Assembly (NCBI GenBank): GCA_013792005.1
Contig: VMSU01000121.1
Coordinates: forward strand, 1-32,682
Source: Desulfobulbaceae bacterium
Lineage (GTDB): Bacteria > Desulfobacterota > Desulfobulbia > Desulfobulbales > VMSU01
DNA: 32,682 nucleotides
Direction of reading: 5' to 3'
In this document: in pieces, positions 3,077-27,299 of the stretch
Layout: each line of letters opens with the position of its first letter
How positions within the stretch are numbered: the first letter of the stretch is position 1
The notes under the pieces: model-generated
Database searches by the model: none
What the model was told of the DNA's origin: nothing
Seen by the model: only the letters and a program-made list of their open reading frames with translations
Made by a program: the position numbers and the translations under genes

Positions 3077-3901
3077 ATGCCTCAAGCCAAAACCGACGTC
3101 ACCAAAAGAAACATTGATTTCGCCACCCGGACTGCTACCAAGATATGGAAAGAAGAGCCATCGGCGCACAATCCCTATCTGGCGGAAGAGTGCCTCTGTC
3201 ACGGCTACAGCCTGATCGAATTAATGGAAGGCCGGAGTTTCGTTGACACCCTATTCCTTCTCTTTCAAGGAGAACTCCCCTCCCCCGATCACGCAAGATT
3301 GCTGGAAATGACGTTGGTCGCCTTCTGCAACCCCGGCCCTCGGCACCCGGCCACCAGGGCGGCGATGAACGCAGGCGTTGGCAAAACCTCTCCGGCTCAC
3401 CTCCTTCCCATCGGACTCAACGTCCTCAGCGGCTCACACCTGGGAGGTCAAGAAGTAGAAGAGGCGATTCGTTTTTTACGGAAACACGCCGGGGACTTGC
3501 CGAATGAAATCGCCTTGGCCCTGCTGGCCCCCAACCGACCAGAAAACGGTGATTTCCACCTGGCTCCAGGCTTTGGCAGCCGATTTGGCGGGATAGACCC
3601 AATGCCAAAAAAAGTGGCGGATATTCTGACTGCCCACCATTCGTCAGGAGCAGCCCTGCAATGGGGGAAGGCCTTTGCCGAGACGATCCGCCCGGATAAC
3701 ATGGGATGGCTCAGCACCGGGGTGGTTGCCGCCGTGTTATGCGACCTCGGCTTTCACCCTCAGGCCGGGGCAGGAATGTTCCAACTGATTTGCGCACCAG
3801 GGATCCTGGCCCACGGCTTGGAACTCGCCAATAAACCGATCAGCGCCATGCCATTTCTAGACGAGGAACACTATGTCATTGAGCATAACACACCACGATA
3901 A
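3077..3901 (+). CDS. Citrate-synthase-fold protein 1, catalytic residues not conserved
   Basis: A 274-residue protein of the citrate synthase / citryl-CoA lyase superfamily (PF00285), shorter than ordinary citrate synthases (about 370-430). Family landmarks: an early YSLIELMEGRSFVDTLFLLF segment followed by GELP, a mid-protein GVGKTSPAHLLPIGL helix, SGSHLGGQEVEEAI where catalytic enzymes have GPLHGGANEAV, FGSRFGGIDP where they have GFGH.VYK.DPR, and DNMGWLSTG where they have NVDFYSG. At these three places the catalytic His, His and Asp appear to be displaced, Ser and Gly, so ordinary acetyl-CoA condensation is unlikely. It overlaps the next gene, a second citrate-synthase-like protein, by 29 bases, which suggests translational coupling and a heteromer. 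The alignment is by eye. Ribosome site before the ATG is weak. Confidence 0.78.
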   Translation: MPQAKTDVTKRNIDFATRTATKIWKEEPSAHNPYLAEECLCHGYSLIELMEGRSFVDTLFLLFQGELPSPDHARLLEMTLVAFCNPGPRHPATRAAMNAGVGKTSPAHLLPIGLNVLSGSHLGGQEVEEAIRFLRKHAGDLPNEIALALLAPNRPENGDFHLAPGFGSRFGGIDPMPKKVADILTAHHSSGAALQWGKAFAETIRPDNMGWLSTGVVAAVLCDLGFHPQAGAGMFQLICAPGILAHGLELANKPISAMPFLDEEHYVIEHNTPR

Positions 3902-4721
3902 CACCGCATTCTGGGACAACCGCCGCGGTGTGATCCGTACCCGGATCGGCGGCTGGATCCCGGGCAGAGCCGTTTACTGCCATGGGTACGACATGATGGA
4001 AGACCTGGTCGGCAAGGTCTCCTACTTCCAGGTACTGATGCTCAACGCTACGGGCCGGCTCCCGGATCGACGACTCGCCGACTGGATGGAGGCTTACTTT
4101 ATCGGTAACAGTTATCCGGATGCACGCATTTGGTGTAATCAAATCGGAAGTCTGGCCGGAACCATGCACACTTCTCCGCTTACCGCCACAAGCGCCGGCA
4201 TCCTGGCCTCGGATTCAAAAATGTATGGACCGGGGACAGTAATGGCAGGTGTAAACTTCTTTGTCGAGGCCCTGGCAAAAAAAATGAACGGCCTGTCGGC
4301 TGAAGAAATTGTCACCGACCAACAGAGGCACCCTAAGGCCAAACCTGTGATCATCGGCTACGCTCGCCCAATTGCCAACGGAGATGAAAGGATCGCCACC
4401 CTGGATCTCTTAGCAAAAAAATTAGGGTTTGAGCGGGGAGAACATCTGACCCTGGCATTTGAAATCGAGCAGGTAATATATAATAAAACCAAAGAACGCA
4501 TGAACCTTCTTGCTTATGTCCTGCCCTTTCTCTGCGACCAAGGCTATACTGCCCGAGAAATCTATCGCCTCTTAAGCGCCCTCGTCTATGCCGGTGTCGT
4601 CGCCTGTTATGGCGAGGCAGCTGACCAGCCGGGAGAAGCATTCTTCCCCCTGCAGTGCAATGATATCTACTATCAAGGTAAACCCTTACGAAAGATACCT
4701 GAAAAAAAGTGCCTCTCATGA
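3873..4721 (+). CDS. Citrate-synthase-fold protein 2, catalytic residues not conserved
   Basis: A 282-residue protein whose layout also follows citrate synthase / citryl-CoA lyase proteins: HGYDMMEDLVGKVSYFQVLML then GRLP near the N-terminus, YGPGTVMAGVNFFVEAL in the position of the GPLHGGANEAV helix, GYARPIANGDER in the position of GFGHP-DPR, and MNLLAYVLPFL in the position of NVDFALAAL. All three catalytic positions look substituted. The ATG at 3873 lies inside the end of the previous gene with a clear GAGGA site a few bases upstream; the stop TGA overlaps the ATG of the downstream dehydrogenase (ATGA). This is a coupled three-gene unit. The most economical idea is a heterodimer with protein 1 that acts as an acyl-CoA-binding or scaffold unit, or has a changed chemistry. 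Family call moderate, function unknown. Confidence 0.7.
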   Translation: MSLSITHHDNTAFWDNRRGVIRTRIGGWIPGRAVYCHGYDMMEDLVGKVSYFQVLMLNATGRLPDRRLADWMEAYFIGNSYPDARIWCNQIGSLAGTMHTSPLTATSAGILASDSKMYGPGTVMAGVNFFVEALAKKMNGLSAEEIVTDQQRHPKAKPVIIGYARPIANGDERIATLDLLAKKLGFERGEHLTLAFEIEQVIYNKTKERMNLLAYVLPFLCDQGYTAREIYRLLSALVYAGVVACYGEAADQPGEAFFPLQCNDIYYQGKPLRKIPEKKCLS

Positions 4722-22814: not shown

Positions 22815-23741
22815 TTAAAGACCAGTATCTGTCATCTGCTTTCTGACCACAGCCTCTGACTCTGCGAGGGCTGCCTTCTCTTCTGGTGTTAATGCGAATT
22901 CAATAATCCTTTCAACACCGCCTGCACCAAGTACAACCGGGACCCCGATAAAACAGCCCGATATGCCAAATTCCCCATCCACATAAGCGGCGCAAGGGAG
23001 AACACGCTTGGTGTCCTTAAGGATAGCCTCAGCCATCTCCACCGCCGAGAGACCTGGAGTATAAAACGCAGAACCAGTTTTAAGATGATTAACAATCTCG
23101 ATCCCGCCATGCTGGGTTCGCTTGACAATATCGGCAATCGCTTCAGGAGAAAGGAGATCTGTCACAGGCACTCCGGCGACGTTAGCCAACCGAACCAACG
23201 GCAACATATTATCACCATGCACCCCCATAACCATGGCGTTCACATCTTTAGGCGAAACCCCCACCGCATCAGCCAGAAAAGTCCTATAACGGGCAGAATC
23301 CAATACTCCAGCCATACCAATTACCCGGTTACGGGGAAAACCGGAGACCTTGAAGGCCGTATAAACCATAGCATCTATAGGATTGGTGACCACAATCAAG
23401 ACTGCATTTGGTGAATGCACAACCGCTTGCTCGGTACAAGACTTTACGATCGAAACATTCTTGGCCAGCAGATCATCCCGACTCATGCCCGGCTTTCTCG
23501 CTAAACCTGCGGTGATGATAATGACGTCTGAATCAGCAGTATCCTGATAATCATTGGTGCCAGTAATTGAGTAGGAAAAACCATCCACCGGTCCTCCCTG
23601 CAGCAGATCCAAACCCTTTCCCTGCGGGATTCCTTCCACCACATCCATCAACACGACATCACCAAGCTCACGCGCCATCGCCCAGTGAGCCGCAGTCGCA
23701 CCCACATTACCTGAGCCAATAATTGTAATCTTCTTTCGCAT
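22815..23741 (-). CDS. mdh: Malate dehydrogenase (LDH-like type)
   Basis: A 308-residue NAD-dependent enzyme, malate to oxaloacetate. The Rossmann motif GSGNVG is at 9-14, followed by an acidic residue at the end of strand 2 (VLMDVVEG), which fits NAD. The substrate loop [13 protein letters not shown] has the Arg-Lys-Pro-Gly-Met form of malate, not lactate, dehydrogenases; the catalytic Asp/Arg segment [11 protein letters not shown] and His in VMGVHGDNM are present. ATG 23741 is chosen over GTG 23744, with GAGGA upstream. It is one of the - strand run kdnB-kdnA-kdsB-mdh-cofD-like-cbiQ-cbiO. Its housekeeping role (reductive or oxidative TCA) is by family knowledge. Confidence 0.94.
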
Positions 23742-23788
23742 CACTTCCTCGCTGTATCAATAATTAATCAACATTATAATAAAATAAA

Positions 23789-24589
23789 TCAACTTTGTCG
23801 GCTGGACGGCGGCAGGTTGTCCGGCACTGAATTAATCATAGCAACAACCCTCTCCAGGTCTTGAGGGGTATCTACTTCAATAGAATCATGCTCTGTCAAA
23901 ACCACCTTGATTTGATACCCGAACTCAAGGGCCCGCAATTGCTCAAGCTTTTCAAATCGCTCCCACTCACCCTCTGGTAACCCAACAAAGATCACAAAGA
24001 ATCCTTTCCGATAAGCATAGAATCACAAGTGCTTATAATAAGTCGGGGGTACTGGCTCATCAGGGTTTCGCTGAAATGGAATCGGAGAACGAGAAAAATA
24101 GAGCGCCATTCCATGTCTGTCAAAAACAGTCTTCACATGATTAGGGTCGTGTATTTCCTCATGCCTGACGATCTTATAGATCAACGTTGACATAGGCAAA
24201 GACAGGTCTTCAAGCAGAGGGCGAGCCACCTGCTCAACCACCTCATGGGAAAAAAATGGTTGATCTCCCTGGATATTGACCACCACGTCTTGTTCAGCAA
24301 CACCCATCTTTTCTGCAGCCTCAGCCAAGCGGTCGGTTCCGGAAACATGATCGGAACGGGTCATAACCACTTCCCCGCCAAATCCATGAACACAACTGGC
24401 AATACGCTCATCATCGGTAGCAACCGCGACCCGTGTCAGAAGCGGCACAGCCATAGCTCTTTCATACACATGCTGGATCATTGGTTTGCCGGCAATATCG
24501 GCCAAAGGTTTCCCTGCAAACCTGTTAGATCCATAACGTGCAGGAATAATTGCAACAACCCTGGACTGCTCATTCTGTTTTATTGACAC
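23789..24589 (-). pseudogene. kdsB: kdsB (CMP-Kdo / CMP-8-amino-Kdo synthetase) interrupted by an in-frame TGA
   Basis: Activates Kdo (or 8-amino-Kdo) with CTP before LPS inner-core assembly. The N-terminal part shows IIPARYGSNRFAGKPL, ATDDERI, SGTDRLAEA and VVNIQGDQPF, all KdsB marks. At 24023-24025 the frame meets TGA, in KHL-stop-FYAYRKGFF, where the family has a conserved Gly (HLG.Y.YR); one base change from GGA gives TGA. The same frame then continues with EKLEQLRALE and HDSIEVDTPQDLERV, the expected C-terminus, to the stop at 23789. So the gene is intact apart from one codon. A GTG at 23995, with AAGGA six bases before it, could restart translation. The start is taken as GTG 24589 (GAAGGA upstream); TTG 24598 is the alternative. 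Sequencing error, pseudogene, readthrough or a two-piece protein are all possible. Confidence 0.85.
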
Positions 24590-24616
24590 TGAACCCAAAT
24601 CCTTCGTAGAAAAAAT

Positions 24617-25819
24617 CTATACCAGCGCTGCCGCATGGGCCGCTGCCACTATCTGAGCCAATCTCTCTTCTGAAAGCTTGACCGGCACCTGATACACTAA
24701 AGTCCGACCCATAATCTCTGCTGATTGAGGCAAAACCTGAGGATCATAAATGACCCTTCGCTTTCCATGCCCATCAATAAAAGGCCAACCAGCACGTGAC
24801 AATGTTGCTCCACTCAGCAAGTGCTCCCATTGAGGATAATAATGCCACGTGTTCTCGGCAAAATATACCGCCCCAGCCCCCTTCTCTCGTAGGATAGCGT
24901 TAACAGCCTTAGCCTGAGTGGAATCAGGAAGCATAAAAGACAAAAAAGTCGCCGAATCTCCGGCCTCGTCGACATATTGTCGAAAAGTAACACCTGGAAT
25001 TGAAGCAACGGCATCACGCATTTTGGCTTTGTTAACTTTTTGGGCGGCAATAATTGTATCGAGCTTCGCTAATTGCGCCAGCCCCAAAGCACCTTGAAGC
25101 TCCATCATTCGGAAATTAAAACCTATAAAACGACGTCCCTCCCCGCCACGACCACCAGGATTTTGAACATGATCATGCCCATGATCCTGATATTCGGAGA
25201 ACGTTCTCCATAATTCAGGATCGTTGGTGATCACCATCCCACCCTCACCAGTGGTAATTGTCTTTACCGGATCAAAGGAAAAAGTACCGCACGCACCAAA
25301 ACTTCCTAACTTGCGCCCGTTGACACTGGCGCCAGGGGACTGAGCGGTATCCTCGATTACAGGAATACCATGATGATCGGCAATCTTCTGAATTTCATCA
25401 ATTCTAGCCGCTGCTCCCATCATATGCACAGGAATAATAGCTCGCGTTTTAGGAGTAATTTTTCTCTCAAGATCAACAGGGTCCATATTCAAAGTTTGAT
25501 CTATCTCGGTAAAAACAGGAACGGCCCCAATATCGAGAATAGCCTCCCAAGTGGCGACAAAGGTAAACCCCTGAGTGATCACCTCATCACCGGGACCAAC
25601 TCCTAAAGCAACAAGCGCAACTTTAAGAGCAGCGGTCCCCGAGGTAACGGCCTGTGCATGGCTGGTACCGCAATAGAGAGCAAACATTTCCTCAAATTCA
25701 CGAACTTTATACACACCGCGACGCTGTTCCGCGAATTCATAACGAAAGAGTACCCCGGTATCAAAAACTTCCATTGCCTCTCTCTTCTCTTCCTCTCCAA
25801 ACACTTCAAAGCCTGGCAT
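24617..25819 (-). CDS. kdnA: 8-amino-3,8-dideoxy-manno-octulosonate aminotransferase (KdnA-like)
   Basis: A 400-residue PLP-dependent DegT/DnrJ/EryC1-family enzyme. It resembles the Shewanella KdnA as I recall it: start MPGFEVFGEEEK, PLP Lys in SFDPVKTITTGEGG, the SGTAALK loop, the QDHGHDHVQNP segment and a WHYYPQWEHL segment near the end. KdnA transfers an amino group from glutamate to 8-oxo-Kdo to give 8-amino-Kdo. An AAGGAGT site precedes the ATG. Position between the iron-type alcohol dehydrogenase (KdnB) and kdsB is exactly the known three-gene set, which raises confidence well above the family level. Without the context it would only be a sugar aminotransferase. Confidence 0.88.
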   Translation of the reverse strand: MPGFEVFGEEEKREAMEVFDTGVLFRYEFAEQRRGVYKVREFEEMFALYCGTSHAQAVTSGTAALKVALVALGVGPGDEVITQGFTFVATWEAILDIGAVPVFTEIDQTLNMDPVDLERKITPKTRAIIPVHMMGAAARIDEIQKIADHHGIPVIEDTAQSPGASVNGRKLGSFGACGTFSFDPVKTITTGEGGMVITNDPELWRTFSEYQDHGHDHVQNPGGRGGEGRRFIGFNFRMMELQGALGLAQLAKLDTIIAAQKVNKAKMRDAVASIPGVTFRQYVDEAGDSATFLSFMLPDSTQAKAVNAILREKGAGAVYFAENTWHYYPQWEHLLSGATLSRAGWPFIDGHGKRRVIYDPQVLPQSAEIMGRTLVYQVPVKLSEERLAQIVAAAHAAALV

Positions 25820-26007: not shown

Positions 26008-27183
26008 TTAATCCCACCCGTTTAACGCCACCTGATAGATATTCACTACATCATCATAGGTTGGACGCCGGGGATTATTTTCAACCGGTCTTGTTACAGT
26101 TAAGGCAATTTTTGCCATTTCCGGGATCTTGTCACCAGGGATATTCAAGTCAGCAAGGGTTGCAGGAATACCAATTTCCATATTTAGCTCAAAGACTGCC
26201 TCGACCACACATCGAGCTGCCTCCTTGTGACCAATCCCTTTAACCTCACACCCCAAAAGAGCCGCGACCCGAGCATATTTTTCGGGAGCCCCGAGAAGAT
26301 TATATTGCAAAACATAGGGGAGGAGCACAGCGTTAGCTAACCCATGGGGAATTCCAAACATTCCACCCAATGGATATGCCATCGCATGCACTAACCCGAC
26401 GCCGGCTGTTGCTAAAGCCTTACCAGCCAGCATACTCCCCAGCAACATATCAGTACGTGCACTTATGTTGCCGCCATGAGCGTAGACCTTGGGCAAGCTG
26501 GCGCTGATTAACTTCATAGCTTCCAATGCATACATATCGGAGATTGGATGAGACTGAGTTGATACAAATGCCTCAATAGCATGGGTGAAAGCGTCAATCC
26601 CGGTTGCGGCGGTGACATGAGGTGGCATAGTAAGAGTTAACTCAGGATCCAATATCGCTGCTTCCGGATAAAGAGGATCACCATTCATCCCACCTTTTGA
26701 ACTGGTTTTTTCATTAATAAATACGGCCGTAAAACTAACCTCAGCACCAGTGCCAGCAGTAGTAGGAACCATGATTTTAGGAACACCGGCCTTGGCAATC
26801 TTACCAAGGCCGAGATAGTTTTCAGCACACCCCCCATTCGTCAACAATATACTAACTGCCTTGGCAACATCCATCGCTGAACCGCCACCAACGCCAACTA
26901 CACAATCCGCTCCAGCCTGTCGCGCTAACTCAGCGCCACGATCCGCCAAGCGTAGTCCTGGCTCTGGATCAATCTCAGTAAAAATTGTAAAGGGGATTGC
27001 TTCATCATCTAACGGTTTAGTAATCTTCCCCATTAGATTAGCGGCAACTACTCCAGGGTCGGCAACTAAAAAAACTTTGGTACCTTTGAGATTTTTAACA
27101 ATCATGCCTAGATCAGCAATAGCGCCACAGCCAAACCGAATAGTTGTCGGTTGTCTAACAGTAAAATCAGGTGATAAAATCAT
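26008..27183 (-). CDS. kdnB: Iron-containing alcohol dehydrogenase, Kdo 8-oxidase (KdnB-like)
   Basis: A 391-residue member of the Fe-ADH (dehydroquinate-synthase-like) family. The nucleotide loop is GVGGGSAMDVAKAV, the metal-ligand helices include DAFTHAIEAFVS and VHAMAYPLGG...PHGLANAVLLPYVLQYN, with the His residues in the places expected for metal binding. In Shewanella, KdnB oxidises C8 of Kdo to 8-oxo-Kdo, the substrate for KdnA. The start ATG 27183 has AAAGGA 6 bases before it; the frame extends upstream to a TTG at 27207. Alone this sequence would be a generic alcohol dehydrogenase, so the Kdo assignment rests on the adjacent kdnA and kdsB. Divergent from the YjgA-family gene. Confidence 0.82.
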   Translation of the reverse strand: MILSPDFTVRQPTTIRFGCGAIADLGMIVKNLKGTKVFLVADPGVVAANLMGKITKPLDDEAIPFTIFTEIDPEPGLRLADRGAELARQAGADCVVGVGGGSAMDVAKAVSILLTNGGCAENYLGLGKIAKAGVPKIMVPTTAGTGAEVSFTAVFINEKTSSKGGMNGDPLYPEAAILDPELTLTMPPHVTAATGIDAFTHAIEAFVSTQSHPISDMYALEAMKLISASLPKVYAHGGNISARTDMLLGSMLAGKALATAGVGLVHAMAYPLGGMFGIPHGLANAVLLPYVLQYNLLGAPEKYARVAALLGCEVKGIGHKEAARCVVEAVFELNMEIGIPATLADLNIPGDKIPEMAKIALTVTRPVENNPRRPTYDDVVNIYQVALNGWD

Positions 27184-27299
27184 AAGTAGTCCTTTTGTAT
27201 TGAACAAATAAAAAACACCGAATAAAGTGAATTGAATTTACCGTAGTCATCTCCGGTAAGGCAACTAAAAAGTGCGTCACGTAAGGAATCAGCTAAATC

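Follow-up and report, generated by a model that had tools for sequence, protein, structure and literature searches.

The KdsB family is described by the models TIGR00466 and NF003952 and by solved structures (PDB 3k8d, 1gq9 and 2y6p). In the Aquifex enzyme, D219 is one of two strictly conserved Asp residues that hold Mg-A (PMC3149649). In-frame stops in bacteria are known to be widespread and usually short-lived (PMC7918605), UGA is recoded to glycine in SR1, Gracilibacteria and BD1-5 (PMC4032931), and a tRNA-Trp with a 4-bp anticodon stem has been linked to UGA readthrough (PMC13092985). A Kdo8N pathway with KdnA (5k8b) and KdnB (5k8c) is described from Shewanella oneidensis. Here we analyze a kdsB frame from a Desulfobulbaceae bacterium that carries one in-frame TGA. 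The window referred to below is the whole stretch of DNA that was analyzed, 32,682 nucleotides of contig VMSU01000121.1.

An in-frame TGA at an invariant glycine of kdsB

The frame and its parts are as follows.
23789..24589, minus strand: kdsB frame with one in-frame TGA; start GTG at 24589, terminal stop TGA at 23791-23789
24026..24589, minus strand: N-terminal 188 codons of kdsB, with the CTP-binding region together with most of the second domain
24023..24025, minus strand: in-frame TGA at the invariant Gly of HLG.YAYRKGF
23792..24022, minus strand: 77 codons past the in-frame TGA, good KdsB sequence that includes Asp codon 243

Around the stop the minus strand reads ...PTYYKHL*FYAYRKGFF.... 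The TGA is codon 189 when counted from the GTG at 24589 and codon 192 when counted from a TTG at 24598; Asp codon 243 is counted from the TTG. When read through with code 25, the frame scored 317.1 bits against NF003952 (cut-off 193) and 244.1 bits against TIGR00466 (cut-off 155.2), covering nearly the entire model in both cases, and it aligned over its full length with solved KdsB structures. The N-terminal part by itself was also above the cut-offs of both models. No frameshift was found in kdsB, and the in-frame TGA is its lone disruption. The product is predicted to be CMP-Kdo synthetase, or possibly CMP-Kdo8N synthetase.

The residue at the position of the TGA was Gly in 109 of 109 aligned related loci, and a stop was found there in none of them. 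The initial annotation had recognized KdsB sequence on both sides of the stop and the loss of a conserved Gly, and the model scores and the alignment bear out both points. In addition, kdsB was uninterrupted at this position in all nine other genomes of the family that were searched. A TGA flagged in one of the genomes (G001) lies outside the part aligned, which runs up to query position 258, and was taken as that gene's own end.

As written, the product stops after HL. Asp codon 243 lies 3' of the TGA, in frame, and aligns without gaps with Aquifex D219; it is absent from the truncated product. The counterpart of the first Mg-A Asp (Aquifex D95) is expected within the intact N-terminal part, at VNIQGDQP. 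Truncated KdsB should be inactive.

Purifying selection on both halves of the frame

Codon differences between kdsB and its nearest relative (L009) were counted on each side of the stop. There were 90 synonymous and 25 nonsynonymous differences before it, and 31 synonymous and 3 nonsynonymous differences in the 59 codons after it. From the stop position onward, parsimony places 17 synonymous changes on the window's own branch and 4 nonsynonymous ones, with the stop itself counted among the 4. Judged from these codon comparisons, purifying selection is acting on both halves of kdsB, and the frame is without decay. Neither relaxed selection nor further disruptions, as signs of a pseudogene, were found in kdsB, and nonsynonymous changes are still rare 3' of the stop. 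A very young pseudogene, however, would not show relaxed selection.

At near-invariant columns the window kdsB deviates at two positions only, G192* and L201F. The two are 29 nt apart, and both are G-to-T changes on the gene strand. The second is the following.
23996..23998, minus strand: Leu-to-Phe codon (L201F), 29 nt away from the base that creates the stop; 108 of 109 relatives have Leu at this position

The neighboring genes showed one such departure (mdh) and two (kdnA), numbers near those that their relatives show on average.

Copy number and the Kdo pathway

The assembly consists of 252 contigs, 4.0 Mb in total, and is 97.6% complete. It is probably metagenome-assembled, as suggested by its fragmentation and by its close relatives, which are nearly all metagenome-assembled genomes. 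Seven matches to PF02348 were found in it, kdsB included. The three strongest of the others, PseF, a PseF-like gene and an SpsF/NeuA-like fusion, fall far under the KdsB cut-offs and were rejected as a second kdsB on account of their PseF-like or SpsF/NeuA-like character; the other three score weakly, at 24 to 34 bits. In an SpsF/NeuA-like case (L003:1480-3507, G000:C7), the cytidylyltransferase domain is fused to an aminotransferase-like domain.

No second kdsB was found in the 97.6% complete assembly, and a search of plasmid records returned no similar sequence. The suggestion that kdsB might be a pseudogene covered by another copy elsewhere did not hold up in this search. Both kdsA and two waaA-type proteins (Kdo transferase family PF04413) are intact in the genome. 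A working KdsB is expected, since a single kdsB was found in a genome of this completeness in which kdsA and the two waaA-type genes are intact.

The neighborhood of kdsB

Two genes flank kdsB on the same strand.
24617..25819, minus strand: kdnA-like aminotransferase, adjoining kdsB on its upstream side; among solved structures it matches KdnA of Shewanella oneidensis (5k8b) best
22815..23744, minus strand: malate dehydrogenase (mdh), the conserved downstream neighbor

The kdnA-like gene matched 5k8b with 341.6 bits, while the next solved match scored 188. The gene order kdnA, kdsB, mdh, cofD was found in many relatives; therefore the window kdsB is the native copy. Beyond the kdnA-like gene lies an Fe-dependent alcohol dehydrogenase (Fe-ADH, 26008-27207, minus strand), in an order that recurs in many Desulfobulbales; its match to KdnB (5k8c) is just 101 bits.

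The gap between kdnA and kdsB (24589-24617) is 27 nt here and about 1 kb in relatives that have both genes, and in the three genomes of the same genus no kdnA shows up in the 1.5 kb upstream of kdsB. The possibility that kdsB decayed after loss of a neighboring gene was considered and dropped: no conserved gene appeared in the roughly 1-kb gap of the relatives, so its absence here is uninformative. Elsewhere in the window, two tandem, overlapping citryl-CoA lyase-like genes were seen on the plus strand (3077-3901 and 3873-4721), both well under the model cut-offs.

A consensus error or a recent nonsense allele

We lean towards the explanation that the TGA is a base error in the draft consensus and that the living organism makes normal full-length KdsB. 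The gene would then be an ordinary, single-copy, vertically inherited kdsB, and the TGA would arise from a wrong consensus base. This explanation fits best because the gene is single-copy, the pathway is intact, purifying selection is seen, the stop is alone, and a second odd base lies 29 nt away. A low-quality patch could give such a pair of changes, although paired nearby changes can also arise by chance in real DNA. The fragmented assembly, whose named close relatives are nearly all metagenome-assembled genomes, points in the same direction. Even a rate of one error per 100,000 bases would put about 40 errors into a 4-Mb genome, of which one or two would be nonsense changes. Against a consensus error stands the observation that 203 matches of two large families contain no internal stop over roughly 22,000 codons, so the assembly is generally not error-rich; this number of stop-free codons is nevertheless too small to rule out one or two errors among about 1.2 million. 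A base-call error was among the readings listed in the initial annotation. It stays the most likely one in view of the intact pathway and the purifying selection, while the wrongness of the base itself is something that we infer.

A real and recent nonsense allele, present in the strain or in part of the population, is possible, though we consider it doubtful. Its 188-residue product would be inactive, and the gene would be at an early stage of becoming a pseudogene or would carry a short-lived polymorphism, with an unassembled second kdsB or a lost need for Kdo as a possible help. The TGA does stand in the assembled sequence, and two more nonsynonymous changes follow shortly 3' of it. However, selection on both halves of the frame, the intact kdsA and waaA-type genes and the failure to find a second kdsB in the assembly all weigh against such an allele, and a lethal allele should not dominate the consensus. 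We thus favor the consensus error first and the recent nonsense allele next.

How UGA is read in this genome

Three further explanations have the UGA translated, and one has it bypassed. TGA ends 8 of the 25 other main open reading frames of the window, as well as kdsB itself, in agreement with the earlier statement that it serves as a true stop here. RF2 is intact; C24, a low-scoring prfB-like match that contains an internal TAG, had been considered as a second nonsense case and was dropped, since the GGQ motif was not found there. The genome also has an intact tRNA-Sec, and three formate-dehydrogenase-type (molybdopterin-family) genes (L150, L151 and L152) contain an internal TGA read as selenocysteine, in the context NNIDHCARL-stop-HAPTVA that is typical of formate dehydrogenases. 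UGA is therefore read in two ways here, as a stop and as selenocysteine; the second of these was not known to the initial annotation. Among the 40 tRNA genes found, the UCA anticodon occurs in tRNA-Sec only. A pattern search found no Gly-type tRNA with this anticodon, a negative limited by the incompleteness of the tRNA set, from which tRNA-Gly UCC, for example, is missing.

Functional readthrough, with near-cognate insertion of Trp and some full-length KdsB at a lowered level, would agree with the purifying selection that persists before and after the stop, and a case for translation through in-frame stops in bacteria has been made (PMC7918605). We regard it as improbable: Trp is probably not tolerated at an invariant Gly, RF2 is intact, the stop was seen in no relative, and the tRNA-Trp has a normal anticodon stem of five pairs (TCGGA/TCCGA), not the 4-bp form. 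Slightly less probable still is a real, fixed TGA with kdsB, single-copy and probably essential, depending entirely on UGA readthrough for its expression and the amount of enzyme metered by termination efficiency. If the TGA were real and fixed, a probably essential enzyme would be made through a stop codon.

A restart downstream of the stop was also considered, in which a separate C-terminal piece joins the N-terminal piece. The proposed start is the following.
23993..23995, minus strand: in-frame GTG (codon 202), suggested restart

This GTG does lie 28 bases past the stop, with AAAGGA placed 6 nt ahead of it. The supposed ribosome site, however, proved to be coding sequence of intact relatives: AAAGGA encodes the Lys-Gly of a conserved Arg-Lys-Gly, and since these residues are encoded there, each of the 25 nearest intact relatives has an SD-like AAGG or equivalent at the same place. 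Codon 202 is likewise ATG, GTG or TTG in several intact relatives. Moreover, a restart would skip codons 192-201, and with them G192, Y194, Y196 and F200, which do not vary among the 109 relatives; a split gene was seen in no relative. The two-polypeptide enzyme once thought possible thus appears very unlikely.

Insertion of selenocysteine at the kdsB UGA is hardly to be expected either. The tRNA-Sec and the three formate-dehydrogenase-type genes make it conceivable, but Cys occurs at this position in 0 of 109 relatives, all of which have Gly. In addition, the 40 nt from the UGA fold weakly (-5.4 kcal/mol, z about -0.4), as does a 70-nt piece by its z of -0.12, whereas two formate dehydrogenase controls gave a clear SECIS-like hairpin whose loop is GUCU (-12.7 kcal/mol, z -1.6); the third gene was left out as a control since the automatic pick was a later stop.

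A genome-wide reassignment of UGA to glycine, as in SR1 and Gracilibacteria, would explain why the UGA falls at an invariant Gly, but its probability is negligible given the terminal TGAs, the intact RF2, the restriction of UCA to tRNA-Sec among the tRNAs found, the 203 family matches without internal TGA and the placement of the host with Desulfobacterota, and the earlier rejection of global recoding is upheld.

Comparison with known systems

With a UGA at a Gly position, the host resembles SR1, Gracilibacteria and BD1-5 (PMC4032931). It differs from them in that no glycine UCA tRNA was found, RF2 is intact, terminal TGA is used, and it belongs to another phylum. With the in-frame stops reported under purifying selection (PMC7918605), the window kdsB shares a single nonsense codon and conserved coding sequence on both flanks; unlike those, its stop was seen in one genome alone. 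Lone nonsense codons in draft genomes need a read-level check before recoding is claimed.

As in the Kdo8N pathway of Shewanella oneidensis, a KdnA-like aminotransferase adjoins kdsB upstream and an Fe-dependent alcohol dehydrogenase lies farther out; the latter, compared with KdnB, is nearer to lactaldehyde reductase and ErcA-type enzymes. This arrangement suggests a Kdo8N pathway in the host, predicted from gene content, in which the Fe-ADH is no close relative of KdnB. The neighborhood further suggests that Desulfobulbales may produce the amino sugar Kdo8N.

In comparison with KdsB itself (TIGR00466 and NF003952; 3k8d, 1gq9 and 2y6p), the whole frame aligns lengthwise if the TGA is read through, and the catalytic and Mg-binding positions appear to be kept. 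It departs from the family in the in-frame stop at the invariant Gly, which leaves the product as written without the second Mg-binding Asp. Taken together, the findings most likely describe an ordinary kdsB.
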